Notes under the pieces: generated by a model | What the model was told of the DNA's origin: nothing | What the model saw: the letters and a program-made list of their open reading frames with translations, nothing else | Database searches by the model: none | Assembly (NCBI GenBank): GCA_003963315.1 | Contig: RXJP01000021.1 | Location: 41,575-105,574, forward strand | DNA from: Rhodocyclaceae bacterium | Lineage (GTDB): Bacteria; Pseudomonadota; Gammaproteobacteria; Burkholderiales; Rhodocyclaceae | Length of the DNA stretch: 64,000 nt | Reading direction: 5' to 3' | Translations under genes and position numbers: made by a program | Shown here: in pieces, positions 8,790 through 30,057 of the stretch | Layout of the letters: each line of letters opens with the position of its first letter | How positions within the stretch are numbered: position 1 is the stretch's first letter

Positions 8790-10037
8790 TCAGGCCCGCT
8801 TGCCGAAACGTTTCTTCTGCACCACCCAACCCTCCAACTCGACTTCCGAGTTTGCCGCGACATTGTGTTCCAACCAGCATCGGGTAGGTGCCGGACAGAA
8901 GGTATCGCGCACCGTGGCCCCTTGCAGCCCGGCCGAGGACAGGGCGGCTTGGATGCCGGCCACTGCTTCCGGCGCGAGTTCCCGAACGATGAAGACCAAG
9001 CGTCCCTGGTGGTCGCCGAAGATGCTTTGCTCGGGCCATTGGGCAAGGTTCACCGGCGGATACGCCACATCCTGCACACAGTGGATAACCCGCGGCTTGG
9101 GGTCGCCGGCAACGTTCATCAGGCCCTTGATACGCAATAGCTGCGGCCCGTGGGCCTCCAGGATGCGGCCCATGGCGATGGCAAAGGCCAGCCAGGTCAC
9201 CGGCGCGTCGAACTTCACGACAAAGCTGTTCACCAGGCCGTCGTGGCGGGCCGGTGGCGGCACGGTACGGGGTGCAGCGCCCTTCCGGGTCCAGGCCATC
9301 TGCCCGGGCGTGACGAGGGTCGGCTGGGCGCGGGCCTGTTCCTCCCCCAACCAGGTGGCCACGTCGGCGGACTTGCCGCTGCTGGTGTAGATGCCGCAGC
9401 CGAACACGGCATCCGGCGCCACCCGGCCGTTGTGCACTTCAATGTGGGGCGCGCCGGGGTTGAGGACATCCAGCTGCCGCTCCAGGGCGGCGCGAACATC
9501 GGCCCCGGCCAGATCGCACTTGGTCATCAACAGGCGGTCCGCCATCACCACCTGGCGCACCGCCTCCCGATGCACGTCGAGCTGTTGCAGGGCATGGGTG
9601 GCATCCACCGCGGTGATGACGCCGTCGCAGCGATAGCGGGCCGCGACAAAGCGCTCCTGCATCAAGGTGTAAACCACCGGCACCGGATCGGCCAGGCCGG
9701 TGGTTTCGATCACCACCCGCAGCACCGGCGGGATCTCCCGGCGCGAGCTGCGCTGGGCAAGGTTCTTCAGCGCCTTGACCAGATCGCCCTGGACGCTGCA
9801 ACAGATACAGCCGGAATCGAGCACCAGCAGGGTTTCGTCCACCTGATCCACCAGGTGGTGGTCGATGCCCACCTCGCCGAATTCATTAATCAGCAAGGCG
9901 GTGCCCGCCATGTCGGGATGGGACACCAGATGGTTGAGCATGGTGGTCTTGCCTGCACCGAGAAAACCGGTGAGCAGGGTGACGGGGATACGGTGGTCAA
10001 TGGGTGCCGCTGATGGGGCTTGGGTCATGTTGGTCAT
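8790..10037 (-). CDS. CobW/P47K-family GTPase (metallochaperone type)
   Basis: The 415-residue protein belongs to the COG0523 G3E GTPases. It shows Walker A GFLGAGKTTML, switch region NEFGEVGID, the metal-binding CxCC motif DSGCICCSV, and guanine-specificity MTKCD. A C-terminal CobW_C domain (about 270-400) includes the closing WVVQKKRFGKR. Such proteins insert or supply zinc, cobalt or iron to target enzymes; the target here is unknown. ATG 10037 follows AAAGGAAACACC. It is last in the HEPN-like/MDR/CobW group, 13 bases after the MDR gene. Confidence 0.85.
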   Translation of the reverse strand: MTNMTQAPSAAPIDHRIPVTLLTGFLGAGKTTMLNHLVSHPDMAGTALLINEFGEVGIDHHLVDQVDETLLVLDSGCICCSVQGDLVKALKNLAQRSSRREIPPVLRVVIETTGLADPVPVVYTLMQERFVAARYRCDGVITAVDATHALQQLDVHREAVRQVVMADRLLMTKCDLAGADVRAALERQLDVLNPGAPHIEVHNGRVAPDAVFGCGIYTSSGKSADVATWLGEEQARAQPTLVTPGQMAWTRKGAAPRTVPPPARHDGLVNSFVVKFDAPVTWLAFAIAMGRILEAHGPQLLRIKGLMNVAGDPKPRVIHCVQDVAYPPVNLAQWPEQSIFGDHQGRLVFIVRELAPEAVAGIQAALSSAGLQGATVRDTFCPAPTRCWLEHNVAANSEVELEGWVVQKKRFGKRA

Positions 10038-10050
10038 GGTGTTTCCTTTT

Positions 10051-11034
10051 TTACAAACGGACAATCACATTGCCTAGAACCCTTCCGGATTCGACGGCCT
10101 CGTGGGCCTGGGCGATCTCATCCAAATCGAAGGCCGCGCCTATCGTATGGTCCAGCACATTGTTTTCCAGCAACTGGGTGATGCCCTCCAGCGCCGCGCG
10201 ACGGTCGGCGACCAGAAGCTCGTAGACCAAAAAGAATTTCAGGGAAATCGAGTTGAACAGCATGGGGCGGAAAGGGATGGCCACGGCACCCATGTCGTTG
10301 GAACCGTAGCTGACCAAGGTGCCGTGGGGCGCCAATGCGCCCTGCTCCAGCAAGCGAACGGTGGACGAGAAATCCATGTCGATGATGGCGTCCACGCCGC
10401 GCCCCGCAGTCATCTCGCGGATGCGCTCGGCCACCGGCTCACGCTTGTAGTCGATGGTTTCCATGGCGCCGGCCTGTACGGCATGACGGGCTTTCTCCTC
10501 GCTGCCGACGGTGCCGATCACCCGGGCGCCGTTGCATCTGGCGGCGATCTGCGTGGCATAGTGGCCCACCGCGGAGGCGGCGCCCACCACCAGCACGGTC
10601 CTGCCCTGCAAGGCGCCGAGCAGACTTATTCCATGGAAAGCCGTAAGGGCCGGAATGCCCAGGCAGGCGCCGGCTTCGAAGCTGGTCGCCGCGGGCAGCC
10701 GCACGGCCTGGCGGGAAGGCACCACAATGTATTCAGCGGCGGTGCCCATGGATCGCTGCCACTGCCCGTTCCACACCCAGACGCGCTCACCCAGCCGGCC
10801 TGGAGCAACACCGTTGCCGATCTGATCAATGATGCCGGCGCCGTCGCTATGGGGCACCACACGGTCGAAATCGCCGAGAGGGCGGCTGCGGCGGGCCTTC
10901 ACATCGGAGGGATTGACCCCGGAAACCGACAGTTTGACGCGCACCTCGCCCGGACCGGCTTGGGGCGTCGGCAATTCGCCGATCACCAGCACCTCCCGCG
11001 CCGCGCCGTTGTTGCTGTACCAGGCTGCCCGCAT
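10051..11034 (-). CDS. Quinone reductase-like MDR oxidoreductase
   Basis: The 327-residue protein is a medium-chain dehydrogenase/reductase of the zeta-crystallin/QOR type. It has an N-terminal GroES-like domain (SGVNPSDVKAR) and an NADPH-binding AxxGxxG segment (VLVVGAASAVGHYATQIA, about residue 150). The catalytic-zinc and structural-zinc cysteine clusters are absent, which fits the zinc-free QOR branch. The substrate is likely a quinone or an activated enone, but the sequence does not say which. It lies 20 bases after the HEPN-like gene. Confidence 0.85.
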   Translation of the reverse strand: MRAAWYSNNGAAREVLVIGELPTPQAGPGEVRVKLSVSGVNPSDVKARRSRPLGDFDRVVPHSDGAGIIDQIGNGVAPGRLGERVWVWNGQWQRSMGTAAEYIVVPSRQAVRLPAATSFEAGACLGIPALTAFHGISLLGALQGRTVLVVGAASAVGHYATQIAARCNGARVIGTVGSEEKARHAVQAGAMETIDYKREPVAERIREMTAGRGVDAIIDMDFSSTVRLLEQGALAPHGTLVSYGSNDMGAVAIPFRPMLFNSISLKFFLVYELLVADRRAALEGITQLLENNVLDHTIGAAFDLDEIAQAHEAVESGRVLGNVIVRL

Positions 11035-11054: not shown

Positions 11055-11510
11055 TCACTGCGTCCAGATGTCGATGTCGGCCTCGGTCAGCACCGGGCCC
11101 AGTCCCTCCACCCGGGACAACAAATTCATCACCACCTGGATCAAGTCCACCGCCAAGCCGTAATCCAAGGGCTCCAGGCCTTCAGAGTGCGCCACTTCAT
11201 AACTCTTGGCCAAGGTTTTCTTGGCGGTCGCGTCCATGACCATCAAATAGGGCAGCAGCAGGAACAGGGGAATCGCGGTATTCGGCCGCAGCCCCTTCCA
11301 ACGAAAGGCGGCCAGGGTCAGTACGTTGCAGGCGTTGTAGGCAATATCGAAGCGGCTCTCCGTCGCCAGGGCCTCGTTGCGGGCGTCGATCAGGCGACGG
11401 CGGCCGGCACGCACCAGTTGCTCAAACTCGTTCTGGGCACTGGGAGCGAACTTCAATTTGCCCATGCGCACCAGATCTTGCAGGCTGGTTTCACTTATCG
11501 TCATATCCAT
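11055..11510 (-). CDS. Small all-helical protein, possible HEPN-like
   Basis: About 151 residues from ATG 11510 (an in-frame ATG at 11504 is an alternative). The segment LIDARNEALATESRFDIAYNACNVLTLAAFRWKG resembles the core helices of HEPN/SAV_6107-like proteins. No clear RX4-6H ribonuclease motif is seen and no nucleotidyltransferase partner gene is adjacent, so a toxin role is not supported. It begins just downstream of the terminator of the export operon and starts a three-gene group with the MDR and CobW genes. The function is unknown. Confidence 0.6.
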   Translation of the reverse strand: MDMTISETSLQDLVRMGKLKFAPSAQNEFEQLVRAGRRRLIDARNEALATESRFDIAYNACNVLTLAAFRWKGLRPNTAIPLFLLLPYLMVMDATAKKTLAKSYEVAHSEGLEPLDYGLAVDLIQVVMNLLSRVEGLGPVLTEADIDIWTQ

Positions 11511-11572
11511 ATCCACTTCACGAATCCATCGGCGCCGACGCCACAGCCCGGTCGTCACCCAAAATGAAACAA

Positions 11573-11606
11573 GGCCACCTTGAGGGCTGTTCTCCTCAAG
11601 ATGGCC
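11573..11606 (-). terminator. Terminator of the export operon
   Basis: GGCCACCTTGAGG (11573-11585) pairs with CCTCAAGATGGCC (11594-11606), 12 of 13 positions. On the minus strand the stem is followed by TTGTTTCATTTT. It lies 17 bases after the DUF1329 stop codon. Confidence 0.8.
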
Positions 11607-11622
11607 GCGTACTACATTGCCA

Positions 11623-12933
11623 TCACTTGCCGCCGGTGGCGACTTCCTCGAGCTTTTCCAGGGAAACGTCGTTTTCCTTGACGCCCTTGGGATCGGACTT
11701 CATGTTGGAAGACCAGGTGGTGGAGTGCTTGCGCTTCACGTCGATGACGTGGCCCACCACGGGCATCACCGCCTTGTAGCCGTCCTCGCCCACGTCGGGA
11801 CGGTTCTGGAAGATCATGTACTTCCAGAACTCACCCTTCTGGTCGTACATCTCGCCCAGGTAGGGACGGGGAAAGTCCACTTCCATGTACACCACCTTCT
11901 TGCTGTAGGGGTGCTCGGCCGGGGGCGTGCCTTCGATCACATAGACTTCCCGCGGCTCCCAGGCGATGTTCTTGGCCGGGAAGAAGTAAGGCGCTTCGGT
12001 CAGACCGACGGAGGGGAACTCTTCAGGCGTGTCCTTCTTCGCCTTGTCCACGCTGACTTCCGGGCTGTGGGCGATGGCGAACACCCAGCGCTTGCCGATC
12101 AACTTGTTGGCGCGGTACTTGGTGGGGAAGGCATCCCAGATATCCCAGTCGTCGTAGAGCTGGTCGGTGCCGCCGATGGGGTCCATCCAGGCGCCGCCGG
12201 AAAGGCGACGGGTGCGCCGCACCGACTTCAGATAGGCCCAGGTGTCATCGGGTTTCTTGGAATCGGCTTGGTTGTAGCGGATGGAAAAGGTGCCCAGGCC
12301 GCGAATATCCTGCGGGCTGGTGGCGAACAGATAGGTCTTCTGGGCGATGGTGCCGTCGCCGACAGTGGTCGGTCCGCCGTCCAAACGGCCTTCCATGTAG
12401 TAACGACGGGACTGCCAACGCTGGACGCGCTCAACACCCTTGTCGCCGGAGATGAAGACGAAGGAAATGTCCCGCAGGTCCATGGTGGAGCCGTAGGTAT
12501 CGGCCCGCAGGTTCCAGATGATCTTGTCGCCGGCGGTGGGATCGTCCATCTTGATCACTTCCGGCGGGAAGGGCTGGCCGGCCACCCAGTTGCTCATGGT
12601 GCGGTCGGACGGGTTGAACTTCACGGTGGAGATGTTCTTCTTGGATGCCTCGACATACTTGGGGTCCATGGCGATCTTCTTGGAATGGGCGATCTTGATG
12701 GTCAAGCCCATGTTCTTGATCATCCATTCCATCTTTTCCGGAATCATGCTGCCCACGGTCTTGCCTTCGAAGGTCTCGTTGCGCACCTTGTCCAGGTTGT
12801 CCTTGGTGATGACGAAGCCGGGCTCGAGTTCCGCTGCCTGGGCCGCGCCCAGGGCGAGACCCATGATCGCCAGGGCGGTCATGGCGCTTCGGGCGCGACC
12901 GCTGGGCTGTTTTTTCTGATTGCTTGCAAACAC
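11623..12933 (-). CDS. DUF1329 protein (LolB-like fold, exported)
   Basis: This 436-residue protein has a signal peptide ending near AAQAAELEPG (residues 1-34). It matches DUF1329, a periplasmic or outer-membrane-associated family predicted to have a LolA/LolB-like lipid-binding fold. It is last of four co-oriented genes (YCF48 protein, MMPL permease, DUF1302, DUF1329), separated from DUF1302 by 16 bases. The four recur together in many hydrocarbon and steroid degraders. An inferred role is carrying a lipophilic molecule across the periplasm or placing it in the outer membrane. Confidence 0.85.
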   Translation of the reverse strand: MFASNQKKQPSGRARSAMTALAIMGLALGAAQAAELEPGFVITKDNLDKVRNETFEGKTVGSMIPEKMEWMIKNMGLTIKIAHSKKIAMDPKYVEASKKNISTVKFNPSDRTMSNWVAGQPFPPEVIKMDDPTAGDKIIWNLRADTYGSTMDLRDISFVFISGDKGVERVQRWQSRRYYMEGRLDGGPTTVGDGTIAQKTYLFATSPQDIRGLGTFSIRYNQADSKKPDDTWAYLKSVRRTRRLSGGAWMDPIGGTDQLYDDWDIWDAFPTKYRANKLIGKRWVFAIAHSPEVSVDKAKKDTPEEFPSVGLTEAPYFFPAKNIAWEPREVYVIEGTPPAEHPYSKKVVYMEVDFPRPYLGEMYDQKGEFWKYMIFQNRPDVGEDGYKAVMPVVGHVIDVKRKHSTTWSSNMKSDPKGVKENDVSLEKLEEVATGGK

Positions 12934-12949
12934 TTTATGTCTCCTTTGC

Positions 12950-14533
12950 TTAGAACTGCCGTGTCAAACGAAATACGAGCTGGTCGTCATGCTGGAACCA
13001 ACCGAAGAGCTGCGTACCGGGCGTGTTGGTATCGAACAGCTTGGTGCTTTGCGCGGTAGCCCAGAACATGTCGGCTTCCACCTTCAAGCGCCAGCTATCC
13101 CCGAGCACAAAGTCCACAGCGGGGATGAAGAAGCCGCCGCCATTGTTCAAGTCCGCGCCGATGGCGAAGGACGGGTTGATGGTGTCGCTGCGATAATTGA
13201 GCACCGTGAAGGCGGTCAGGATGGCGCTATGCTTTTTCACCGGTGAGGCGTAGGCGAAGAAGCGGGCCAGATCGTCGGACTCCTTGTATTTCAAGATCAT
13301 GGTGTCGAACAACTGAACCGACGAGAAGGAAGGCCGGCTGGTGCCGAGCCAATCCTGGAAGTTGAGGTTCTTGTCGGCACGGAACATGAAGGTCAGGGTG
13401 TCCTTCTTCATGACCCCGCCCAAACCGTCGCCCACGTGGCCGGCCACATTCGGTGCGCCGAACGCGCCGGTGCCGATGTTGTAGGGCTGATCCTTGGTGA
13501 AGGCCACTTCCGCGCTCAACACGGAATCCAACGGTGCGCTATAGCCGCTCAGGGTCACGCCATACACATCGATCTCGGGATGGATGATGTCGAAGAAGGC
13601 CCCGGTAGGCGCTTTCTTATAGGGCACGAACGCCGAGTTGGCGATAGGATCGGCGGCGAAGGTCTTGATGTAGGCGAAGGAGTAGTTCAGTGAATCGTAT
13701 TCGCCGGACCAGCGGATACCACCCGTGGTGTCCTTGTAGTTGCCATCGGGATGCTTGCAGTCGGTATCCGTCACTGCCGTCAGGTCGTAGCCCTTGTAGG
13801 GCTGGGTGAACCAGCGACCGCCACGGATGTCGTAGGTGTTGCCGATGTCCTTGCAGGAATCCAGGCCGGGACGCACATAGACGTGGAGTTGCCCTTTTGC
13901 TTCCGGCACATCGATCTTGGCCGAGGCCAGCCACAGGGGCTTGCGCCATTCCTCATTCTCGCCTTCGAAGAACAGGCGCCAGCTCAAATCGTAGCCGTGC
14001 ACCACGTCCATGGCGTGGAAGAAGTCGCTCTCACCCCAGACGATCTGCTGCCGACCCAGGCGCACCGTGGTGCGGTCGCCGGCCTTGAACTCCGCCCACA
14101 GTTCCCGGACTGAAGCATTGTTGTAGTTGTCCATGATGTCATGGCTCTGGCCACCGACGGCGGTGCCGTTGGTGGTGCGCAACTTCTCCAGATCCTTCAG
14201 GTAGTCGGTCTTGACTTCCTGGTCGGCGCGGGCCACGGCCTTCCATTTGACGGCGCCGGTATTGGCATCCATGTCCACCAAGGCGGAAGCGCGGATCATG
14301 GAAGCCTTGCCCTTGTCGTTCTGGGGCGTTTCCGGTTGGTCCCGCAGATTGAAGGACGCCCAGCCGCGCAGATAGCCACCCACGTGGAAGGTATTGCCGA
14401 AATCATCCGTTGCGGTGGTGCCGGAGTCGCCTTCGGCGTGGCCCAGCGGGCTCCATTGGGCTACCGCCAGCGATACGGCCAGGCCGATCAGGCGGCGGCG
14501 GTTGACGCCATTTTTTATTGCGTTTGTTGTCAT
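12950..14533 (-). CDS. DUF1302 outer-membrane beta-barrel protein
   Basis: The 527-residue precursor has an unusually long N-terminal region with a hydrophobic signal segment (about residues 14-33, LIGLAVSLAVAQWSPLGHAEG). A mature part rich in alternating polar/aromatic strands follows, ending in phenylalanine (QLVFRLTRQF), the usual outer-membrane-insertion signature. Family DUF1302 is predicted to form a porin-like barrel. Its gene lies between the MMPL permease and DUF1329 genes, so it is the likely outer-membrane pore or acceptor of this export system. Confidence 0.85.
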   Translation of the reverse strand: MTTNAIKNGVNRRRLIGLAVSLAVAQWSPLGHAEGDSGTTATDDFGNTFHVGGYLRGWASFNLRDQPETPQNDKGKASMIRASALVDMDANTGAVKWKAVARADQEVKTDYLKDLEKLRTTNGTAVGGQSHDIMDNYNNASVRELWAEFKAGDRTTVRLGRQQIVWGESDFFHAMDVVHGYDLSWRLFFEGENEEWRKPLWLASAKIDVPEAKGQLHVYVRPGLDSCKDIGNTYDIRGGRWFTQPYKGYDLTAVTDTDCKHPDGNYKDTTGGIRWSGEYDSLNYSFAYIKTFAADPIANSAFVPYKKAPTGAFFDIIHPEIDVYGVTLSGYSAPLDSVLSAEVAFTKDQPYNIGTGAFGAPNVAGHVGDGLGGVMKKDTLTFMFRADKNLNFQDWLGTSRPSFSSVQLFDTMILKYKESDDLARFFAYASPVKKHSAILTAFTVLNYRSDTINPSFAIGADLNNGGGFFIPAVDFVLGDSWRLKVEADMFWATAQSTKLFDTNTPGTQLFGWFQHDDQLVFRLTRQF

Positions 14534-14572
14534 GCTTCTTCCCCCGTTTAATTGTTGTTTCAGTTACTTCGA

Positions 14573-16954
14573 TTAAGCCAATTGGACCTGCTCTTCAGCA
14601 ATCGCAATCGGATGCCGCTTGCTGCCGACCACAAATTCAGGACGGAACACGTACACCATCGCCGGCATCACGAAGAGCGCGGACGCTGCGGAAATACCCA
14701 GCCAGATGGCAATCAGGACGCCCATGTCGGCCTGGAGCCGCAGAGAAGAGAAGCTCCAGATGATGACGCTGGTGATCAGGGTCAGGGCGGTGATGAGGAC
14801 GCCACGACCGGCGCTCCTGAGGGCCTTGGTGATGGCCTGTTCGATGTTGGAAACGCCGTGGTGCAGCTCCTCGCGGATGCCGTCCACGATGTAGAAGGTG
14901 TAATCCACACCGAGGCCGATACCGAGGGCCACCACCGGCAGGGTGTTGATGTTCATGCCGATGCCCTTCCAGGCCATGTAGCTGAAAGTCAGGGTGTTGG
15001 AGAGCAGCACCGGCACCATGAAGAACACGCCGGCCACGGTGGAGCGGTAGGTGAAGGCGCAACAGGCCACCAGCACCAGCAGGGCGAAGGCGATGGCTTC
15101 GATCTGGCCGGACAGGATCACTTCATTCACCGCCGCCAGCACACCCACCAGGCCGCCGGCCAGCATGATCTCGGCGTCCTTGATGGGATGTTCGGCCACG
15201 TAGTTCTTGATCCGCTGCACCGCCGTGCTGATGGTCACGCCCTGGTGGTCGCGGAAGTAAAGGGTGACCGCGCCGTTCTTGGCCTGGGGATCGGCAAAGC
15301 GGTCCATGTCGCCGGGGTCGGTGCCGGAGACGAACATGTACACCAGCTCGCCGTTTTCGTTGGCGGTATTGCCCAGCTCCTGGTAGCGGGAGTTGCCTTC
15401 CCGCACCACGCGCTTGACCGCGGGCAGGATGTCGGCGAGGGAAATGCTGCCGCCGATTTCGGGCTGCGCTTCCATGTACTTCTGGAAACTTTCCATGCCC
15501 TTGAGCACTTCCGGTTCCTTGAGGGCACCTTCTTCCTTGCCCGCCACCACCACGAACATGCGGTCGGAACCCTGGAACTTGCCGTTGATGGCCGTGGCAT
15601 CCTGGTTGTACTTGGAGTTGGGCCAGAGGATGGGCGAACCCGGATTGGCGTCGCCCACCTTGAGGTTGAAAGCGTAGATGCCGGTCACCACGAAGATCAC
15701 CGCGGTAGCGCCAAGCACCACATAGCGCCAGCGGGTGGAAACGATGGCGATACAGACATTCAACACGCCGTCCAATACCGGGCCGATGTTGACCGGGTGC
15801 ACCTTCTTGCCGCTGGTGGAAAACCAGGACAGCAGCACCGGCGTCATCAACAGGGCGGAGACGACGATGGAGAAGATCCACACGGTGCCGATATAGGAAA
15901 TTTTTTCCAGCATCGGAATGGGGGTCAGCGCCACCACCAGCACGCAGCCGGCATCGGCCACCACAGCCAGGAGACCGGGCTTGAACAGGTTTTGCAGACT
16001 GGCCTTGGCTGCCGCTGCGGCGCTGGTGCTGCCATTGGCCACTTCGTCGTCGAAGCGGGACACCAACTGCACCGAATTGGAAATGGCCTGGGCGGTGATG
16101 AGGAAGGCCACCACGATCACCAGGGGGTCCAGGTGGAAGCCCATGATCTTGGCAGCACCCAATGCCCAGATGGCGCTCAGCAAACCCGCTGTCAGGGGCA
16201 GCACGGTGCCGTGCCAGCTGCGGGTGATGAGGAACAACAGCACCACCAGGGAGGCTACCGTGATGAGGAAGATGTACAGGGTTTCGGTCAGGTAGTGGCC
16301 GACGATGCCGTACAACATGGGTTCACCGACGATGCGCACTTTCACGCCATCGCCCTCGGCGTCCTTGGCGATCTCGCTGATCTGCTCGTACACCTTGGTG
16401 TAGTCGATACCGGTGTCCACGAAGTCCACCGTAATCAGGGTCGCCTTCTGATCCAGGGAAACATAGGGGCCGAACACCAAGGGGTTGTTCAGTACCGATT
16501 CCTTGAGGGTCTTGATCTCGGCATCGTTCTTCGGCAGATCGGGCCACATCAAAGGCCGGGACTCGATGCCGTCGGTGGAGGCGCGGACTTCCTTGATCTT
16601 CTTCGAGGCCAGGGAAACGATCTGGTAGCCGTCGACGTTGGAAACCTGCTGCAGGGACTTGGTGATCTTCTGCACCCGCTCCAGCACCTTCATCTGGAAG
16701 ATGTCGCCGCTGTCCACTTCCAACATGATGCTGACCATGTTGGAGCCGCCGAAGGTCTGCTTGAACTGATCGTTAACCTTGATGTACTGGTGATTGCGCG
16801 GCAACAGGTCGCTGAACACCGTCTTCACTTCGATATGGGCGGCCAGATAGCCCATCACCGCCGTGATGGCCAGGACCACGGACACGACCCAGACCCGTTT
16901 GCTGATTAGCCACTCGATGGCGTGGCCGACCGCTTTGTATGTTTTGTTTTTCAT
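14573..16954 (-). CDS. MMPL/RND-superfamily permease
   Basis: The 793-residue inner-membrane protein has the RND-like arrangement. TM1 is at residues 18-36, a large periplasmic loop follows (about 40-230), then a block of five or six membrane segments with sterol-sensing-domain-like features (about 230-420), a second loop (440-620), and a final membrane block (620-775). It has no periplasmic adaptor gene beside it, which suits the MMPL branch that moves lipids and other hydrophobic compounds. It lies 18 bases after the YCF48 gene. The direction of transport cannot be read from the sequence. Confidence 0.9.
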   Translation of the reverse strand: MKNKTYKAVGHAIEWLISKRVWVVSVVLAITAVMGYLAAHIEVKTVFSDLLPRNHQYIKVNDQFKQTFGGSNMVSIMLEVDSGDIFQMKVLERVQKITKSLQQVSNVDGYQIVSLASKKIKEVRASTDGIESRPLMWPDLPKNDAEIKTLKESVLNNPLVFGPYVSLDQKATLITVDFVDTGIDYTKVYEQISEIAKDAEGDGVKVRIVGEPMLYGIVGHYLTETLYIFLITVASLVVLLFLITRSWHGTVLPLTAGLLSAIWALGAAKIMGFHLDPLVIVVAFLITAQAISNSVQLVSRFDDEVANGSTSAAAAAKASLQNLFKPGLLAVVADAGCVLVVALTPIPMLEKISYIGTVWIFSIVVSALLMTPVLLSWFSTSGKKVHPVNIGPVLDGVLNVCIAIVSTRWRYVVLGATAVIFVVTGIYAFNLKVGDANPGSPILWPNSKYNQDATAINGKFQGSDRMFVVVAGKEEGALKEPEVLKGMESFQKYMEAQPEIGGSISLADILPAVKRVVREGNSRYQELGNTANENGELVYMFVSGTDPGDMDRFADPQAKNGAVTLYFRDHQGVTISTAVQRIKNYVAEHPIKDAEIMLAGGLVGVLAAVNEVILSGQIEAIAFALLVLVACCAFTYRSTVAGVFFMVPVLLSNTLTFSYMAWKGIGMNINTLPVVALGIGLGVDYTFYIVDGIREELHHGVSNIEQAITKALRSAGRGVLITALTLITSVIIWSFSSLRLQADMGVLIAIWLGISAASALFVMPAMVYVFRPEFVVGSKRHPIAIAEEQVQLA

Positions 16955-16972
16955 GTGTTCCTCTTGAATCGA

Positions 16973-18004
16973 TCAGTCGGCGGCGCGGCCGAATACGGAA
17001 AGGGTGCCGTTGTCCAGGTGAGCCAGGCTGGCGCCGGCCAGGACATAGCCCTTGCCCTTGTCGCCCAGGGAATGGCCGAGCACCTGGGTGTTCCAGCCGA
17101 GGTTGCCTTCGCTGACGCGGGTGGCCTTCCAGCCGGCATCGCCGCCGGTGACCATGACGCCCTTATCCCCAACGGCGACCCACTGGCTGCCGTCCCAGAT
17201 CACGTCGTTCAAATGTTCCCGGGTGAGTTGGGCCACTTCCTTCCATTGCGCGCCGCCATCCCGGGTCACCAGCACCACGCCGGACAATCCCACCGCCACG
17301 CCGTTTTCGCTGTCGCGCAGGTACACGGACATCAAGCTCGACTTGACGCCGCTGCTCACCGGCTTCCAGTTCTTGCCGCCGTCGGCGGTGGTTTGGATCT
17401 GGCCGAATTCGCCCACCATGATTCCGTGCTCGCCGTGGAAGGAAATGTCGTTCCAGGCTTGGTCTTTCTCGGGTAACACCCGGGTCCAGGTCTGGCCGAA
17501 ATCGGCGGTCTTCAGCACCGCGCCCATCTCGCCCACCGCCCATGCGGTGCCGTTATCCGTATTGCGGACATTGAGCAGTTTGTTGGCCACCTCGGATTTC
17601 GGCACCTGGACGGGCGCCCAGGTCTTGCCTCCGTCGGCCGTACGGATGACCACACCGTCGCCGCCGACGGCGACAGCCTGGTCTGCACTCCAGGCCGCCA
17701 GGCCCTGCAGATTTTCCTGGGTGGGCGCCGTTTGAGCAGCCCAGGTGGCGCCGCCATCGTCACTGCGGATGACCTTGCCATTGCTGCCGGCGGCCCAGAT
17801 CACTTTGTCACTGGGCATGGCCACGCCCATGAAACGGTCGCGGCGTTCAATGGCCGGCGGCTTGACCGCCGACACCATGGCCTCGGCCTTAACGAACAAG
17901 GCCGCGTACAGGAGGCCGCCGACAATCGAGAACGGAATCAGCGACGTCACGATGGTGACCACCAGCCGTGCGGATTTCTCAAACTTCCCCAAGCTCTTTA
18001 ACAT
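16973..18004 (-). CDS. YCF48/BNR-repeat protein, membrane-anchored
   Basis: About 343 residues from ATG 18004, which follows AAGGTGGG; an upstream in-frame ATG at 18145 is less likely. An N-terminal anchor (VVTIVTSLIPFSIVGGLLYAALFV) is followed by repeated beta-propeller units of the form DGGATW or DGGKTW (about residues 100-320), typical of YCF48/Hcf136-like and photosystem stability factor-like proteins. In this gene set the propeller may act as a periplasmic scaffold for the permease. It is the first gene of the four-gene operon and lies 183 bases from a strong sigma-54 promoter match. Confidence 0.85.
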   Translation of the reverse strand: MLKSLGKFEKSARLVVTIVTSLIPFSIVGGLLYAALFVKAEAMVSAVKPPAIERRDRFMGVAMPSDKVIWAAGSNGKVIRSDDGGATWAAQTAPTQENLQGLAAWSADQAVAVGGDGVVIRTADGGKTWAPVQVPKSEVANKLLNVRNTDNGTAWAVGEMGAVLKTADFGQTWTRVLPEKDQAWNDISFHGEHGIMVGEFGQIQTTADGGKNWKPVSSGVKSSLMSVYLRDSENGVAVGLSGVVLVTRDGGAQWKEVAQLTREHLNDVIWDGSQWVAVGDKGVMVTGGDAGWKATRVSEGNLGWNTQVLGHSLGDKGKGYVLAGASLAHLDNGTLSVFGRAAD

Positions 18005-18186
18005 TTCCCACCTTTCCTGATGCTTCACATGTCTCACTACGCACTGCGTGGACTTGCGCACCGTCAGGCTTGCTGCGCCATGACGAATTGCGATTGCCGA
18101 CAAACGTTGCGAACCGAAGGGGCTCGAATCCAAGCCCTTCGCCAATGTCGGCGCAGGGCACGTCGAGCACGTTCCACACCCCTATT

Positions 18187-18202
18187 AGCAACACAGATGC
18201 CA
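18187..18202 (-). promoter_or_regulatory. Sigma-54 (-24/-12) promoter of the export operon
   Basis: The minus strand reads TGGCATCTGTGTTGCT. TGGCA and TTGCT match the -24 and -12 boxes, and the GG and GC dinucleotides have the required 10-base spacing. It is upstream of the YCF48 gene, with no other gene between. Confidence 0.8.
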
Positions 18203-18276: not shown

Positions 18277-18368
18277 CGTCCGGGAGAAATTCCTTTTGCG
18301 TCGCACCAAGCAATTGGAGTTCGGACGCTATCGGCGGCCGGGCGTTTGATTGCCGGACGCCTGTCCGA
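18277..18368. promoter_or_regulatory. Putative activator sites (CGGAC/GTCCG) upstream of export operon
   Basis: This stretch holds CGTCCGG (18277), TCGGACG (18321) and the inverted repeat CGGAC-GCCT-GTCCG (18354-18367). They lie 75-165 bases upstream of the -24 box, the usual range for sigma-54 enhancers. The same half-site recurs upstream of the other three operons. Binding by the local AcoR-type protein is inference. Together with the promoter, this accounts for most of the gene-free stretch 18005-18500. Confidence 0.5.
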
Positions 18369-18500: not shown

Positions 18501-18531
18501 AAAAAAAAGGGGGAGGCGATACGCCTCCCCC
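18501..18531 (-). terminator. Terminator of the carboxylase operon
   Basis: A perfect 10-bp stem GGGGGAGGCG/CGCCTCCCCC with an ATA loop is followed on the minus strand by eight T residues (A8 at 18501-18508). It is 45 bases after the last carboxylase gene. Confidence 0.93.
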
Positions 18532-18576: not shown

Positions 18577-19437
18577 TCACGACCTCAACCGCGCCAGACG
18601 CTCCAGCACTTGTTCCGGCTGGGCATCGCGGGGAATTTCAACAAAGTAAAACTGGTTCTGCGCCAAGGGGGCGGCATCCTGCGTCCATAGGCTGGCGCTG
18701 ATGTCCACACCATGGGCGCTGCCGGCGACGGGAAGGCCATCGGCGCCGATGAAGACGTCGATGTCGGCCAGTGCCGGCGCTTCGGACAAGGCCCCGCCGC
18801 CCAGGCGCAGGGCCAGGGGCCAGCGGTAGTGCTTGGCGACGTTGACCATGGGCCGGTACAGCTCGGCATTCACCGGGCCAGGCAATACATCGCCCGGCGC
18901 TTCCTCGAACAGGATGCCCCCCACCGGCAGGCTGGATACCGAACGCACCAGATCGGCCACATACATGGCGGCATCCTCGATGTTGTCGTCATCCAGTTCC
19001 ACCTCGCGGTCCACGGCCCGGTTGGCCAAATGCAGCCAGAACCGGGGGGAAGGCATGGCCAGCACCACCGGCGCCTGGCCGCGCAGATGGGCGACCACCG
19101 CTTCGACGATCTCGGCCAGCAGTTCCCGCGGCGCGGTTTGTTCCAGCAGCTTGCGCAGTGGGAAGGACAGCTTGCGCTTCGCCGTCAGCTCCGCCTTGGC
19201 GGCGGGATTGCGTTGCAGCCAGGCGTCGAACAGCTCGCCGACTTCGATCACTGCCACATCCGGCTTCAACAAGCCCTGGGCCTGGGAAAAATACGCGAGG
19301 TATTTGCTCGCGCTTTCCCAGGGATCCCCGGATTCGCCCAGCAGCAGGCGTCGGGTGTAGGCCGACGCCTTGAGCCATAGCCGCAGGCCAACTTTGCCGC
19401 CCTCGACGGGCAGAAGATCGGCGAGACTCTGGCTCAT
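18577..19437 (-). CDS. apcE: Acetophenone carboxylase-like epsilon subunit
   Basis: The 286-residue (about 31 kDa) soluble protein corresponds in size and position to the 34-kDa epsilon subunit of acetophenone carboxylase of Aromatoleum aromaticum. That subunit is needed for activity but separates easily from the core complex. I see no classical catalytic motif. The C-terminal half (VVLAMPSPRFWL, GGILFEEAPGD, IDVFIGADGLP) looks like a beta/alpha-barrel-type fold. Acetone carboxylases lack this subunit, so its presence is the main argument for the acetophenone-carboxylase branch. Its ATG overlaps the stop of the previous gene (ATGA). Confidence 0.75.
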   Translation of the reverse strand: MSQSLADLLPVEGGKVGLRLWLKASAYTRRLLLGESGDPWESASKYLAYFSQAQGLLKPDVAVIEVGELFDAWLQRNPAAKAELTAKRKLSFPLRKLLEQTAPRELLAEIVEAVVAHLRGQAPVVLAMPSPRFWLHLANRAVDREVELDDDNIEDAAMYVADLVRSVSSLPVGGILFEEAPGDVLPGPVNAELYRPMVNVAKHYRWPLALRLGGGALSEAPALADIDVFIGADGLPVAGSAHGVDISASLWTQDAAPLAQNQFYFVEIPRDAQPEQVLERLARLRS

Positions 19438-21710
19438 TGCTTCTCGTCTCCCAGCGCGCCCAGTTTTTCCAGACGGGCTTCCAGCTCATCGATGCGCACA
19501 TCCTTGGGATTGCGCATGTAATTGGGCTTGGGATCGTTGGCGCTGCGGGCCGTATCGGGGCCGCCGACATACAGGGTGCCGACGTCGTCGCCCCAGCAGC
19601 CGAAGTAGGGCAGATGGGCGGGCGGCTTGGGCTGGTTCCACTCCTTGACGAACTGGGCGAAGGGCTTGCCCCGGGCAATCCGCGCCTTGCGCTCGGCATC
19701 GCGGGCGGCGCGGGTGGCATCGTGGTTGATGGCCAATGTCGTGGAATCGAACTTCACCTGGTACAGACGTTCCGCCACGGCATGGGAAATCAGGCCTTCC
19801 TCGATGTCGCGGATCACGCCCGCGGGATCCCGTTCCAGCAGATCGCCGTAACCGGCACCGGCGCCCTGGGAGATCATGAACAATTCACCGCGCTTGGAAA
19901 TCTCGAAGCCCATGCCCATGTGGTGGGTGGTGTAGCTGGCCCCTTCGAAGGGCTGTTCGTTCATGATTTCCTCGATGGAGTGTTTGAACTTGTGGGGTTC
20001 GTTCTCCAGCACCTCGTACACATCCACGCCCTTCACCTTGCAGAGGGGATAGGCGCCGCAGGAGTAGCCGCCGAACAAGCCTTGCAGGGGGGGGATCTTG
20101 GCGCCCTGGCAGACGGTCATGAAGCCCCATTGCTCGGAGTCCTTGGTCGCCACCATCATGGTGTAACCCTGGCCGCCGCGGTACTTGCCCGGGGCCACGG
20201 CATCGCGGGTCATCTTCTTCGACACCAGTTGCAGGAAGGGCACTTCCTCTTCGTTCAATTCCTGCTCGCCGATGTCCGCCATGGTGGCGAAGATCGGCGC
20301 CAGGGCATGCTCGCCGTCCTTGTCGGCCCGGGCGCCGTGGCCCATGCCGTTCAAATCGGCGCAGAGGTTGCCCAGGGTTTCGCCGTGCTGGCTGACACCG
20401 CCCCAGATGAAGGTGTTGATCATGTTGAAGGTAGGGGCGTGCACCTTGGTGTACTTCTCCGGGCAGCTGTAAAGGAACTTGGCCACGGCATGCTGGGCGC
20501 AAGTGAAGCCGGTGAAGATGGACATCAGGCTCTGGGAGTTGGGCGCCGCGTAGGAGCAATCGACGATGGAATGGGGATCGGTGATCACTTCGATGGGGGC
20601 GAAGGCCGCCTGGCCCCGGGGCAGGTCGGGCCAGACGTAGCAGAGGAACATCTGCGCGATCATGCCCTTGAGGCCGGCCAACACCGTGTTGGTGGCGCGG
20701 TTGGTGAACTCGGGGCTGGAACCCCGGAAGTCGAAGACCAGTTTGTCGCCGGTCTTGGTCAGCTTGCAGTTCATCTTCACCACGCAGTTTTCGCGCAGGG
20801 TCGAATCCTGGATGATGTAGGTGCGCACCGACATGTCGGGCCACTCGCTGATACGGCGGGTGACTTCGGCCTTCACGTTCTCCATGGACAGACGCAGGGT
20901 GGACACCAGGGCGTCAGGGCCTTCGTTGCGCAGCACTTCCTCGACCCGCTGTTTGATGCGCAGGCAGGCATACAGCTTGACCTTCATGTCTTCGTACTGG
21001 AGCTTGGGCTCCCGCACGGAGTTTTGCAGGAAAGTCAGGATGTCGCGCTTGATTTCGTAGTTTTCCACCACGCGGAAGGGGCTCATCTTGAGGCCTTCGT
21101 CGAAGGAGGTTTCCGCCATGGAGGGCATGCCGCCCGGCTCGATGGCGCCGTTCTCGCCTTCGTGCACCGTGGAGGCCACCCAGCACACCAGCTTGCCTTC
21201 CCAGAACACGGGAATGATCATGGACTGGTCGGTGTTGTGCACGTTGCCGTAGCGGGAGTCGTTGTGGATGAAGCCGTCGCCTTCACGCACGCCCACGGTG
21301 GGATCGTTCATCCAGTTCTTGATGATGAACTTGATGGGGTGGTGCACCAGGGTGGAGAAAATCAGCACACCGCCGGCACTGGCGATGGAGAGGTCGCCGG
21401 AAGCCGTGTACACGCCGGTGATCACGTCCCCCCACTTGGCGCCGGGAGCGGCGCCCATCTGCTCCACCATCTCGTAGCCTTCATCACAGCCGGCCTGGAT
21501 CCGGTCGCGCAATTTGGCGACGGTGTGCACGTCGCTGATCTTCTTGATGGAGGCTTCCTCGTCCTCGGTACGGGGCATCAGATCATGGCGGCGCATGATC
21601 TCGGGATCGGGGCCGAGGAACAGCGTGGTGTCGGTGAGGAACTTCTTCAGCAGCGCCACTTCCTCTGGGCTGGGAGCCTTGGCTCCCACAGGTACTTTTA
21701 CGTCGTTCAT
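19434..21710 (-). CDS. apcD: Ketone carboxylase, HyuB-type large subunit
   Basis: About 758 residues (84 kDa) from ATG 21710, which follows AAGGA; a TTG six bases upstream is also in frame. It belongs to the hydantoinase B/oxoprolinase family. Recognisable segments are GDGFIHNDSRYGNVHNTDQ, GKLVCWVASTVHEGENGAIEPGG and VFDFRGSSPEFTNRATN. In acetone and acetophenone carboxylases this subunit carries the carboxylation site that joins the phosphorylated ketone with bicarbonate-derived CO2. It is the fourth of five genes; the letter D is given by gene order only. It overlaps the epsilon gene by 4 bases. Confidence 0.85.
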   Translation of the reverse strand: MNDVKVPVGAKAPSPEEVALLKKFLTDTTLFLGPDPEIMRRHDLMPRTEDEEASIKKISDVHTVAKLRDRIQAGCDEGYEMVEQMGAAPGAKWGDVITGVYTASGDLSIASAGGVLIFSTLVHHPIKFIIKNWMNDPTVGVREGDGFIHNDSRYGNVHNTDQSMIIPVFWEGKLVCWVASTVHEGENGAIEPGGMPSMAETSFDEGLKMSPFRVVENYEIKRDILTFLQNSVREPKLQYEDMKVKLYACLRIKQRVEEVLRNEGPDALVSTLRLSMENVKAEVTRRISEWPDMSVRTYIIQDSTLRENCVVKMNCKLTKTGDKLVFDFRGSSPEFTNRATNTVLAGLKGMIAQMFLCYVWPDLPRGQAAFAPIEVITDPHSIVDCSYAAPNSQSLMSIFTGFTCAQHAVAKFLYSCPEKYTKVHAPTFNMINTFIWGGVSQHGETLGNLCADLNGMGHGARADKDGEHALAPIFATMADIGEQELNEEEVPFLQLVSKKMTRDAVAPGKYRGGQGYTMMVATKDSEQWGFMTVCQGAKIPPLQGLFGGYSCGAYPLCKVKGVDVYEVLENEPHKFKHSIEEIMNEQPFEGASYTTHHMGMGFEISKRGELFMISQGAGAGYGDLLERDPAGVIRDIEEGLISHAVAERLYQVKFDSTTLAINHDATRAARDAERKARIARGKPFAQFVKEWNQPKPPAHLPYFGCWGDDVGTLYVGGPDTARSANDPKPNYMRNPKDVRIDELEARLEKLGALGDEKQ

Positions 21711-21749
21711 ATTCAATCCTTCAGTGTATGGTTCCAGTGGATTCCGGGC

Positions 21750-23885
21750 TCAAGCGCGCAGGAACCAGGAGGCACCTTGTTTGGCGGCAACGAAGTTCCA
21801 ACCCGGATCGACCAGATAGGTGGTGACTTCCGAGGCGACAATCGCCGGGCCGGCAATCTGCACGCCGGGCTCGATGTCCTTGCGATCCCAGACGGGGGTA
21901 TCGAAGGAACCTTCGTGGCCGACGAAGTAGCACTTGCGGCTGCTGGCGGGAGGAGGAGGCGACTTGCGCTGCTCTTCGGGCACCGGCTTGATGTCCTCGA
22001 ATTGGACGGTTTCCAGGCGGACAAAGGCGGCGACGCGGATGGTGTTGATGCGGATGCCGGCCTCCGGCGCCTGGCTGCCTTCGCCGAAGCGCTTGCCGTA
22101 GTCCTTGGAGAACTGGTCGATGATGGCCATCACGTCACCCGGGCCTTGCAGTTCATGCATGGGGATCACCGCGGTGGTCTGCACCAGTTGGTTGCCGTAG
22201 CGCATGTCCAGTTCCAACTGATGCTGGATCTGTTCCTTGGGCACGCCCTGGCGGATCAAATCCTGGGTACCGCCTTCCTTGAGCTCGGCGACGATGCTGT
22301 TGAAGCGATCGTAGTCGTCGTACACCTTGCGCGAGTTGGAGTCGTACAGCACCATGTACAGGGACTGCTCATGGATGTGCAACTGGTGCATATTGCCGGC
22401 GCCGACCGCGGAGAACACGGAGCTGAAGGGGGGCGCCAGGATCTTCTGGATGCCCAGGTTCTGGGCGATGCCGCAGCAGTGCAGGGGACCGTTGCCGCCG
22501 TAAGCCAGGTAGGTGAAGTCCTTGGGGTCGTAACCCCGGGCACGCAGCTCGGTGAACAGGCCGTTGGCCATGTTGTCGTCCACCTTCTGCCGGATCAGCA
22601 GGGCGGCCTCGATGGTGGAACAGTCCAGCTCCTCGCACAGGGCGTCCTCGATGGCGGCGGCGGCACGGCGGGGATTGAGGGGAATGGAGCCCCCGGCGTA
22701 GTTCTTCGGATCCAGATAGCCCAGCAGCAGGTCGGCATCGGTCACGGTGGGGTTCATGCCGCCGCGGTCGTAGCAAGCCGGGCCGGGGTCGGAACCGGCG
22801 CTTTCCGGACCGCACTTGACGGTTTCGTACATGCGGTCGTAGCTGGCGACGGAGCCGCCGCCGGCGCCCAGGGTCACCAGGTGCACCATGGGCACGGAGA
22901 CCAGCCAGCGGTCGATGACCGGGTTGAAATCGTAGTGCTTGATGCCGCCTTCGACGACGATACCGATGTCGTAGCTGGTGCCGCCCATGTCGGTGGCCAC
23001 CACATTGCCCAGGGCTGCCTGCATGGCCAGATGCTCGGAGGCGGCGATGCCGGAAACCGGACCGGAGTGGATGGTTTGCAGGGCGTCGGTGGAGTTCAGT
23101 TGGGCCATGCCGCCGGAGTTATGAATCACCAGCATGGGCTTTTCATATTGGTGGGCGCGCAGGTTCTGCTCCAGGGCGGAGAGGGCGTGGTACATGGTGG
23201 AATGGAGATAGCCGTCCACGATGGCCGAGGTGGCCCGTACATACTCGCCCTTACGGCCCGCCACCTGATGGGACAGGATGATGGGAATCGCGCCGAGCAG
23301 GTGGGAGGGATATTCCTCCAGCAGGATTTCCTCGATGCGCTGCTCGTGCATAGGATTGACCACGGAATTCACCAGGGCCACAACGATGATCTGGGCGCCG
23401 CCGTCCACCAGGTCGCGAATCTGCTGACGCACGTCGTCCTCGTCCAGGGGCATGACCAACTTGCCCTGGAAGTCGAGGCGTTCGCGCACGCCGCGGATCA
23501 TCTGCGGCAGCACCAGGGGGTCGGGACGGGAAGCGGCGGGCAAATCCTGCTGGCCCAGGTAATCCAGGCCTTCGCCGTAGCCCCGGGCGCGGCTCAAGGG
23601 CACCGTGGCTTCGAAGCCGGCCGTCACCAGCATGCCGATGCGGGGCCCCTTGTGTTCGATCAGGGCATTGGTACCGAGGGTGGTGGCGTAACGCACCGAA
23701 TCCACTTCGGCCAGGATTTCTTCCAGTTCCAGGCCGAGCACGTGATAGGCCTTGCTCAGGGCTTCATTGAAACCCAGGGCCAGGTTGTGGTGGGTGGTCA
23801 GGGCCTTGGCCTCGATGTATTGGCCGTCCCACACCACGAAACAATCGGTGAAAGTGCCACCGATATCGACTGATACGCGTCTCAT
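21750..23885 (-). CDS. apcC: Ketone carboxylase, HyuA-type subunit (75-kDa class)
   Basis: The 711-residue protein is of the hydantoinase A/AcxA family with an acetate-kinase-like ATP fold. The phosphate-binding motif DIGGTFTD is at residues 7-14. A second ATPase element (VVATDMGGTSYDIG, about residue 300) and GPGPACYDRGG-like SDPGPACYDRGG (about 375) are present. In this enzyme class such a subunit uses ATP to activate the ketone or bicarbonate. It is one of two HyuA paralogues in the operon, as in acetophenone carboxylase (alpha and alpha-prime); acetone carboxylase has only one. The letter C is given by gene order. Confidence 0.85.
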   Translation of the reverse strand: MRRVSVDIGGTFTDCFVVWDGQYIEAKALTTHHNLALGFNEALSKAYHVLGLELEEILAEVDSVRYATTLGTNALIEHKGPRIGMLVTAGFEATVPLSRARGYGEGLDYLGQQDLPAASRPDPLVLPQMIRGVRERLDFQGKLVMPLDEDDVRQQIRDLVDGGAQIIVVALVNSVVNPMHEQRIEEILLEEYPSHLLGAIPIILSHQVAGRKGEYVRATSAIVDGYLHSTMYHALSALEQNLRAHQYEKPMLVIHNSGGMAQLNSTDALQTIHSGPVSGIAASEHLAMQAALGNVVATDMGGTSYDIGIVVEGGIKHYDFNPVIDRWLVSVPMVHLVTLGAGGGSVASYDRMYETVKCGPESAGSDPGPACYDRGGMNPTVTDADLLLGYLDPKNYAGGSIPLNPRRAAAAIEDALCEELDCSTIEAALLIRQKVDDNMANGLFTELRARGYDPKDFTYLAYGGNGPLHCCGIAQNLGIQKILAPPFSSVFSAVGAGNMHQLHIHEQSLYMVLYDSNSRKVYDDYDRFNSIVAELKEGGTQDLIRQGVPKEQIQHQLELDMRYGNQLVQTTAVIPMHELQGPGDVMAIIDQFSKDYGKRFGEGSQAPEAGIRINTIRVAAFVRLETVQFEDIKPVPEEQRKSPPPPASSRKCYFVGHEGSFDTPVWDRKDIEPGVQIAGPAIVASEVTTYLVDPGWNFVAAKQGASWFLRA

Positions 23886-23939
23886 ACGATCTCCTTAATT
23901 CTCCATGCCGCGCCGCCGGAGGCGGCGCGGCCATTGCTG

Positions 23940-24341
23940 TTAGTGGCCGCTATGACCGGCGCCGAGCACCACTTCCGGACCGGCGACGGGTTCCTTCACT
24001 TCCTCGCGGGTGGACCATTGGGCGCGCAGGGCGGGCAGGTCCACTTCCATGTCGTAAAGGGGCGGGTGGCCGGGAATGGCATATTCGGTTTCCACCTGGG
24101 TGCCGCAATGGGGGCAGTAGTACTCGAGGATGCGCACCCACTCAGGATCGGGGCTGAAGGTGAAACGGTACTTTTCCGGGTCGATGATGGGCGGATGGAT
24201 TTCCCGCGGATCGCGGTTGTACACCAGCATGCCTTCCTTGTAGCTCTTGGTGGCGGGGCCCACGACGTGGTTGCACACCCGGCATTCCCACTGCTCCGCA
24301 TCGAGGTCGATGCGCAGGTATTCGGTCATTAGTACTTTCAT
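23940..24341 (-). CDS. apcB: Ketone carboxylase small zinc-ribbon subunit
   Basis: The 133-residue (15 kDa) protein matches the small subunit of acetone/acetophenone carboxylases. It has two CxxC pairs, ECRVCNHVVG (about residue 20) and YYCPHCGTQVE (about residue 75), a likely structural zinc site. The alternative start MTEYLRI lies four codons downstream. It begins 5 bases after the first operon gene, and the next gene follows after 54 bases. In the known complex this subunit is structural and ties the large subunits together. Confidence 0.85.
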   Translation of the reverse strand: MKVLMTEYLRIDLDAEQWECRVCNHVVGPATKSYKEGMLVYNRDPREIHPPIIDPEKYRFTFSPDPEWVRILEYYCPHCGTQVETEYAIPGHPPLYDMEVDLPALRAQWSTREEVKEPVAGPEVVLGAGHSGH

Positions 24342-24346
24342 GGTTT

Positions 24347-26442: not shown

Positions 26443-26458
26443 AGCAAAGCCCATGCCA
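26443..26458 (-). promoter_or_regulatory. Sigma-54 promoter of the carboxylase operon
   Basis: The minus strand reads TGGCATGGGCTTTGCT, with both boxes intact and the correct 10-base GG-GC spacing. It lies about 160 bases upstream of apcA. No other gene or promoter is visible in 26282-26731 apart from the terminator of the chemoreceptor gene. Confidence 0.8.
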
Positions 26459-26533: not shown

Positions 26534-26559
26534 CGTCCGATTTCCGGATGCACGTCCGA
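26534..26559. promoter_or_regulatory. Putative activator half-sites upstream of apc operon
   Basis: Two direct copies of CGTCCGA (26534-26540 and 26553-26559), with TTTCCGGATG between them, lie 76-100 bases upstream of the -24 box. The half-site equals that found before the export operon. That these are enhancer sites is inference. Confidence 0.5.
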
Positions 26560-28045: not shown

Positions 28046-28128
28046 TGCCATCCCCTCCTTGAGTCTCTTCTTGTTTTCCAGCGCTCCGGCCAGATGGCCG
28101 GAGCGCCGCATCCGCCGGGTGTTCCCGG

Positions 28129-29716: not shown

Positions 29717-29826
29717 GGCCCTGCCCGGATGCGAATACCAGGAATGTCCTGTGTGAATTCAGGAATTTATCGGTGCTGCGATGCAATCCGGGCATGCCGG
29801 GACTACCCGGGGACGCGCCCAATATT

Positions 29827-30041: not shown

Positions 30042-30057
30042 TGGCATTGCGGTTGCT
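30042..30057 (+). promoter_or_regulatory. Sigma-54 promoter of thiolase/CoA-transferase operon
   Basis: TGGCATTGCGGTTGCT matches both boxes with the exact 10-base GG-GC spacing. It lies 71 bases upstream of the thiolase start codon. Confidence 0.8.

Follow-up and report, generated by a model that had tools for sequence, protein, structure and literature searches.

A probable four-family trans-envelope transporter of the AmeABCD kind linked to ketone carboxylase genes in a Rhodocyclaceae bacterium

A 64,000-nucleotide stretch of a Rhodocyclaceae genome (GenBank assembly GCA_003963315.1, contig RXJP01000021.1, positions 41,575 to 105,574 of the forward strand; hereafter the window, to which all coordinates refer) carries at 11573-18202, on the minus strand, genes for a YCF48 propeller, an HAE3-type permease of the resistance-nodulation-division (RND)/MMPL superfamily, a DUF1302 barrel and a DUF1329 carrier. 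These are the four families that are encoded together in transporters of the AmeABCD type. Comparison with related genomes gives good support to a link between this transporter and ketone catabolism. We propose that the operon encodes a four-part, AmeABCD-like trans-envelope transporter that is dedicated to ketone catabolism, switched on with it and exporting on balance, a reading that we consider about equally apt to prove right or wrong. An earlier reading of the DNA (the original prediction) had placed an anchored beta-propeller, an RND permease, an outer-membrane barrel and a periplasmic protein here, under a sigma-54 promoter and a terminator of their own. Coordinates and Pfam matches agree with the four genes, and the predicted promoter and terminator are borne out by the features listed here:

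16973-18004, minus strand: YCF48-related beta-propeller, 343 amino acids, one N-terminal membrane anchor ('C' subunit, AmeC-like; PSII_BNR and Ycf48 structures)
14573-16954, minus strand: HAE3-type RND/MMPL permease, 793 amino acids ('D' subunit, AmeD-like; MMPL and TIGR00921)
12950-14533, minus strand: DUF1302 outer-membrane beta-barrel, 527 amino acids ('A' subunit; Pfam DUF1302 and AlphaFold2 model)
11623-12933, minus strand: DUF1329 periplasmic LolA-like carrier, 436 amino acids, GTG start ('B' subunit; Pfam DUF1329 and model)
11573-11606, minus strand: intrinsic-terminator-like hairpin at the 3' end of the operon, a 13-pair stem followed by the T-rich tail TTGTTTCATT
18187-18202, minus strand: putative sigma-54 promoter of the transporter operon, TGGCATCTGTGTTGCT, with one mismatch to the consensus and with position and sequence conserved in apc-type relatives
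18509-18531, minus strand: terminator-like hairpin of the carboxylase (apc) operon, between that operon and the transporter operon, a 10-pair stem followed by TTTTTTTT

Because they have a sigma-54 site and a terminator of their own, and because the apc operon is closed by its own strong hairpin, the transporter genes most likely form a separate transcription unit. We rejected an HAE1-type tripartite RND pump: the operon contains neither a membrane fusion protein gene nor a TolC-like tunnel gene, and the DUF1302 protein models as a single-chain 18-strand barrel.

To place the operon among its relatives, one genome per species was scanned, which gave 80 loci. The order YCF48-MMPL-DUF1302-DUF1329 (C-D-A-B) is complete in 66 of them, and in most of the rest a contig end truncates the locus; the order A-B-C-D, stated for the AmeD lineage, is not that of the window operon and was seen in only three loci. 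In the nearest branch, whose permeases are 69-88 per cent identical to the window's, carboxylase genes lie beside the transporter in 27 of 37 loci (26 of the 31 with more than 5 kb upstream). The two main carboxylase types in this branch are an apc-like enzyme and acetone carboxylase, acxABC. The window's own type recurs in Zoogloea and Rhodocyclaceae with 84-96 per cent identity in subunits C and D, while for the acx type a subunit from locus L091 matches the acetone carboxylase of known structure with 1128 bits. In acx-type loci, the gene for the small carboxylase subunit is followed immediately by the YCF48 gene, in the same orientation. The permease tree splits by carboxylase type into a supported apc group of 15 rows and a supported acx group of 23 rows. 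Some of the rows in these groups that show no carboxylase come from truncated contigs, the exceptions within the available DNA being L090, L102, L104 and L105; in locus L110 (A. diolicum), genes for the ligase, thiolase, CoA-transferase and regulator are present, with no carboxylase within reach. Three of the exceptions, the Burkholderiales loci L102, L104 and L105, have the transporter behind urea-transporter (urtABC) and formamidase genes rather than a carboxylase (scanned in L104). Among 150 related genomes, 13 carry one of the two carboxylases, and all seven that have a nearest-branch transporter fall among these 13, with the transporter adjacent to the matching carboxylase (one-sided P-value = 6e-9, a figure that ignores phylogeny and treats non-independent genomes as independent).

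Such linkage could arise without any ketone function if the genes were a mobile tolerance module that travels with catabolic islands and accepts a wide range of cargo, for instance apolar solvents of any kind. The varied neighbourhoods of a second transporter branch (in L139, amidases, a short-chain dehydrogenase and a bphD-like hydrolase) speak for such a module, as do a copy on plasmid 2 of Aromatoleum aromaticum EbN1 (permease 59 per cent identical) and the several paralogs in that genome. However, in the nearest branch the sub-branches follow carboxylase type, the neighbourhood is stable and the regulatory sites are shared, and we regard this explanation as very unlikely.

The regulatory sites belong to three promoters, those of the transporter operon, apcA and the thiolase gene. 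Besides the transporter site listed above, they comprise:

26443-26458, minus strand: putative sigma-54 site TGGCATGGGCTTTGCT upstream of apcA (pattern match)
30042-30057, plus strand: putative sigma-54 site TGGCATTGCGGTTGCT upstream of the thiolase gene (pattern match)
18354-18368, unstranded: upstream palindrome CGGACGCCTGTCCGA, a candidate activator site (upstream activating sequence), upstream of the transporter site (upstream-region comparison and matches in relatives)
26545-26559, unstranded: upstream palindrome CGGATGCACGTCCGA, upstream of the apcA site (upstream-region comparison)
29826-29841, unstranded: upstream palindrome TCGGACGGACCGTCCG, located between the ligase gene and the thiolase gene, which diverge (upstream-region comparison)

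All three strong sigma-54 sites of the cluster (18187, 26443 and 30042) read TGGCAT-N5-TTGCT. The sigma-54 pattern alone is not above chance in the window (35 sites with at most two mismatches versus 41 expected), and we therefore relied on conservation in relatives for calling sites. The only perfect consensus of the window, at 47994-48009, lies inside a PAS histidine kinase gene (47777-48883), about 215 bp ahead of the gene for the response regulator in an NtrBC-like pair. Twelve other apc-type loci (L076-L078, L080-L087 and L110), as well as L100, have an equivalent site with a score of at least 9 out of 11 upstream of their YCF48 gene; random 480-bp stretches reach at least 10 in about 1 per cent of cases and at least 9 in about 5 per cent. 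The palindrome, TCGGAC-N3-6-TCCG or its mirror, occurs exactly three times in the window, once per promoter. Since the motif was derived from these three copies, they are no evidence in its favour; what tests it is its occurrence in the relatives. There, 25 matches occur in 1.6 Mb, and 10 of them are followed by a sigma-54 site at a distance of 40-260 bp, versus 0.29 expected (loci L106-L108 are near copies). Pairs of palindrome and sigma-54 site occur in apc-type and acx-type loci alike. Judged by its conserved equivalents and by the palindrome 150 bp upstream, the transporter site appears to be above chance. The cluster also contains an activator gene, so that with this -24/-12 element the operon has the expected makeup of a sigma-54-dependent one, and the shared sites support a single regulon comprising the transporter, carboxylase and thiolase promoters. 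The original prediction of co-control with a ketone carboxylase thus holds as far as regulon and gene neighbourhood go; that the transporter would also be co-induced with the carboxylase is what we infer from the shared sites.

The DUF1329 protein (Pfam DUF1329, E = 2.9e-62) has a LolA-type fold in its model (predicted local distance difference test [pLDDT] score 89), which matches LolA3 (9tp6) at Z = 23.1 and the DUF1329 crystal structure 4z48 at Z = 21.1. The original prediction had described it as a periplasmic LolB-like protein; LolA is the better likeness. Between the apc and acx groups, the carrier has 24 fixed differences in the 269 columns conserved within both groups (8.9 per cent), versus 23 in 768 such columns (3.0 per cent) for the other three proteins (Fisher's P-value = 2e-4, a descriptive value that takes columns as independent). 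The type-fixed differences of the carrier are confined to its LolA-like part, from residue 157 onwards (among them positions in 157-173, 202-206, 231-232, 302-322 and 363-373), and many are swaps of aromatic or bulky residues. This pattern suggests that the carrier is the place where the apc and acx versions differ in cargo. One may go further and suppose that a lipid-carrier fold has evolved to shuttle specific small molecules of the pathway, forming with the RND permease and the Occ-like porin a ketone-specific trans-envelope route whose specificity sits mainly in the carrier, the barrel residues of the carrier differing between acx and apc; we offer this idea tentatively, as possible but doubtful.

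A LolA-like carrier also fits a different cargo. The permease and carrier might move a hopanoid or phospholipid between the membranes and so harden the envelope against solvent, being induced with the ketone genes while the cargo is not the ketone. The HAE3 relatives HpnN and MmpL3 move lipids, LolA-type lipoprotein carriers are the closest match of the DUF1329 model, and lipid trafficking would explain the linkage to acetone, which needs no pump. Yet a general lipid cargo does not predict differences that follow carboxylase type and sit in the carrier domain, and the outer-membrane part is porin-like; on balance, we think lipid trafficking unlikely.

In the genome of the window itself (loci L001-L023), 8 DUF1302 and 11 DUF1329 matches contrast with 4 clear permeases of this type. 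Several carrier/barrel pairs therefore appear to have no pump of their own, which would fit a pump shared by several pairs, as in Pseudomonas putida. In locus L152, from a Kordiimonadaceae metagenome-assembled genome with the order A-B-C-D, the DUF1329 protein is 70 per cent identical to the window's and the permease only 55 per cent, a possible sign that the carrier/barrel and pump halves are exchangeable.

The DUF1302 protein (Pfam DUF1302, E = 7.5e-17) is modelled with 18 long strands and a C-terminal Phe (pLDDT 82). Its structural matches are OccK3 (Z = 19.0), the vanillate-binding OpdK (Z = 18.4), a BenF-like protein (Z = 18.1) and the exporter AlgE (Z = 17.6), and this likeness to both single-chain Occ porins and an exporter fits either direction of transport. 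The barrel might, then, serve uptake: an Occ-like porin would admit the ketone or a parent hydrocarbon or alcohol, the DUF1329 protein would bring it across to the inner membrane, and its release or retrieval would be driven by the RND/YCF48 pair, with a net inward flow. The substrate-specific porins are the closest matches of the model, and the system tracks catabolic enzymes, not general stress genes. Nevertheless, AlgE scores nearly as high, acetone needs no uptake system, and HAE3-type RND proteins of known function (HpnN and MmpL3) move their substrates outward.

Evidence from characterized systems falls on both sides of uptake. The DUF1302/DUF1329 genes PP_0765/PP_0766 of P. putida, together with PP_2018/PP_2019, are required for growth on Tween 20 (PMC10866462), as uptake would have it. 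On the other side, deletion of AmeABCD in Castellaniella defragrans lowers tolerance to apolar monoterpenes and raises accumulation of the dye Nile Red (PMC6394551), a phenotype that the original prediction overlooked in calling the cargo of this gene set unknown. We consider uptake rather unlikely, though worth keeping in view.

The permease matches Pfam MMPL (E = 4.1e-37), and its best curated model is the HAE3 RND family TIGR00921 (E = 5.2e-52; 177 bits, under the curated cut-off of 352). An Asp-Tyr pair in transmembrane segment (TM) 10, with the Asp at position 684, is invariant in 90 of 90 permeases. MmpL3-type proteins have a partner Asp-Tyr pair in TM4; here TM4 instead reads S-[NH]-x-x-Q, without such a pair, in the window's branch and in Ame-ordered paralogs alike. 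The window permease is only 25-27 per cent identical to these paralogs and falls on a separate side of the tree, yet the TM4/TM10 signature is common to both (AmeD itself stands outside this comparison). The signature thus suggests a common mark of the lineage and, with one pair missing and the other invariant, a single proton path per chain. The propeller (Pfam PSII_BNR, E = 3.8e-30; match to Ycf48 structures, E = 1e-19) has a hydrophobic segment at about residues 13-38, read off the sequence.

Under the export reading, the sigma-54 activator would sense the ketone or a precursor and, through the shared sites, switch on the promoters of carboxylase, thiolase and transporter at once. Cargo would be taken from the inner membrane or periplasm by the HAE3 permease, which the anchored YCF48 propeller would hold and which the proton gradient would presumably drive via the single TM10 Asp-Tyr pair; the LolA-like DUF1329 protein would ferry the cargo through the periplasm, and the Occ/AlgE-like DUF1302 barrel would pass it through the outer membrane. 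The four proteins would thereby act as a complex, and the cargo is probably the ketone or a compound close to it in the pathway. An outward net flow would limit solvent toxicity during carboxylase action; we put the chance of this direction near even, favouring export on the analogy with AmeABCD, although the barrel resembles uptake porins.

Several points weigh against this proposal. Acetone is water-soluble and membrane-permeant, so that a pump for it seems of little use, and many orthologs lie directly behind acxABC. In about half of the nearest branch the associated enzyme is acetone carboxylase, which weakens the premise of a hydrophobic cargo with which the original prediction had worked. 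The second, more distant transporter branch lies mostly in other neighbourhoods. The transporter is missing from 6 of the 13 carboxylase genomes, which makes it an accessory. The modelled barrel is at least as similar to uptake porins as to exporters, and we found no transport measurement in the literature for any C-D-A-B system. For AmeABCD, the evidence for export is a modest accumulation difference in de-energised cells, the efflux curves of both strains being almost identical (PMC6394551).

Upstream of the transporter operon, a complete five-subunit apcABCDE-like set occupies 18577-26281, and further genes of the presumed pathway follow:

18577-19437, minus strand: apcE-like gene (by position and size; conserved in relatives; no Pfam or NCBIfam match)
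19434-21716, minus strand: apcD-like, hydantoinase-B-type subunit (ApcD model 340 bits, cut-off 1500)
21750-23885, minus strand: apcC-like, hydantoinase-A-type subunit (ApcC model 585 bits, cut-off 1500)
23940-24341, minus strand: apcB-like small subunit (open reading frame and conservation)
24347-26281, minus strand: apcA-like subunit (ApcA model 340 bits, cut-off 1250)
28129-29658, minus strand: AMP-forming coenzyme A (CoA) ligase (Pfam AMP-binding, 2e-81)
30128-31297, plus strand: SCP2-type thiolase
31413-32725, plus strand: 3-oxoacid CoA-transferase, two subunits (31413-32069 and 32093-32725)
32882-34909, minus strand: GAF-containing sigma-54 activator, the presumed regulator (Sigma54_activat 1.9e-62, GAF, HTH_8; recurs in apc-type and acx-type relatives)

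The canonical acetophenone carboxylase ApcABCDE was rejected as an assignment, the A, C and D subunits scoring far under the NCBIfam equivalog cut-offs. The nearest solved chain to the apcC-like subunit is the acetophenone carboxylase gamma subunit (549 bits), and by sequence the enzyme is a five-subunit ketone carboxylase related to ApcABCDE. By analogy with the known acetone and acetophenone pathways, carboxylase, ligase, thiolase and CoA-transferase would be the enzymes expected where a methyl ketone is carboxylated and the resulting 3-oxo acid is then activated and cleaved. A PAS-containing chemoreceptor gene inside the cluster (26732-28111; homologs in L056 and L090) suggests chemotaxis to the pathway substrate. 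Near the transporter operon, at 8790-10064, lies a gene for a CobW-type GTPase, a 55 per cent identical homolog of which adjoins apcE in another genome (L074); a role in metal insertion into the carboxylase is conceivable. Three open reading frames are without any Pfam match: 11055-11558 (167 amino acids), directly downstream of the transporter terminator, 38961-39875 (304 amino acids) and 53667-55043 (458 amino acids).

Transporters of the DUF1302/DUF1329/YCF48/HAE3 kind recur in degraders of oils, aromatics and terpenes, and the kind as such is already known. In the literature that we searched, we found no description of the branch with C-D-A-B order, of its association with two ketone carboxylases, of the palindrome that the promoters share or of the signature in the carrier; nor did titles and abstracts yield a paper tying acetone carboxylase to this transporter, which is now placed within acetone-carboxylase operons. 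The branch is bound to one chemistry, ketone carboxylation, in two versions, one for acetone and one for the ketone of the apc-like enzyme. Because these differ in substrate, they form a natural pair for asking whether specificity moves with the carrier or with the permease.

HpnN and MmpL3, the RND lipid transporters, share the permease superfamily with the window system but act without an encoded set of carrier and barrel, and MmpL3 has the paired Asp-Tyr arrangement that the window permease lacks in TM4. The P. putida pairs PP_0765/PP_0766 and PP_2018/PP_2019 resemble it in combining DUF1302, DUF1329, a periplasmic protein and an RND-type permease, for which the phenotypes of mutants correlate and contacts are predicted, and differ in being two separate gene pairs with a role on Tween 20 and no ketone link (PMC10866462). 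The ORM2a 'Nanopod' cluster of a benzene-degrading member of the Desulfobacterota has DUF1329, YCF48, MMPL and a porin-like protein, and benzene transport, without a stated direction, has been proposed for it; it differs in its Usp-type protein and its phylum, and no carboxylase is described (PMC13101534). A report that Delftia grows less well on phenanthrene once a DUF1329 gene is deleted (PMC13101534) is not used here; the main text of the paper cited for it contains neither DUF1329 nor the locus tag.

The original prediction had pointed to solvent-type efflux induced by acetophenones in Aromatoleum, and this system exists: the EtpR-dependent 'efflux' cluster of A. aromaticum EbN1 is expressed only with p-ethylphenol or p-hydroxyacetophenone (PMC4630880). 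Our literature search found no paper that joins Aromatoleum and acetophenone to RND efflux. Located by the published primers, the cluster (ebA335-ebA326) has the order DUF1302-DUF1329-YCF48-MMPL-Usp. It shares with the window system the four families, sigma-54 control and a position adjoining a ketone-degradation cluster, but its permease is 25 per cent identical, and its gene order and p-hydroxyacetophenone link set it apart as a distant homolog. The true EbN1 ortholog of the window permease, 72 per cent identical, lies directly behind acxABC. An internal TGA considered for the EbN1 permease was dropped; the stop-to-stop frame 205725-208301 is open.

The closest parallel in kind remains AmeABCD of C. 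defragrans, which consists of the same four families and is encoded inside a catabolic island for apolar, toxic substrates (PMC6394551). It has the order A-B-C-D and lies with monoterpene genes, whereas the window system has the order C-D-A-B and lies with a ketone carboxylase; the distance between the permeases was judged via the Ame-ordered paralogs of the window's own genome and of EbN1. Because its gene order, like that of most relatives, is not A-B-C-D, the window system is best seen as an AmeABCD-like variant and not as AmeABCD itself.

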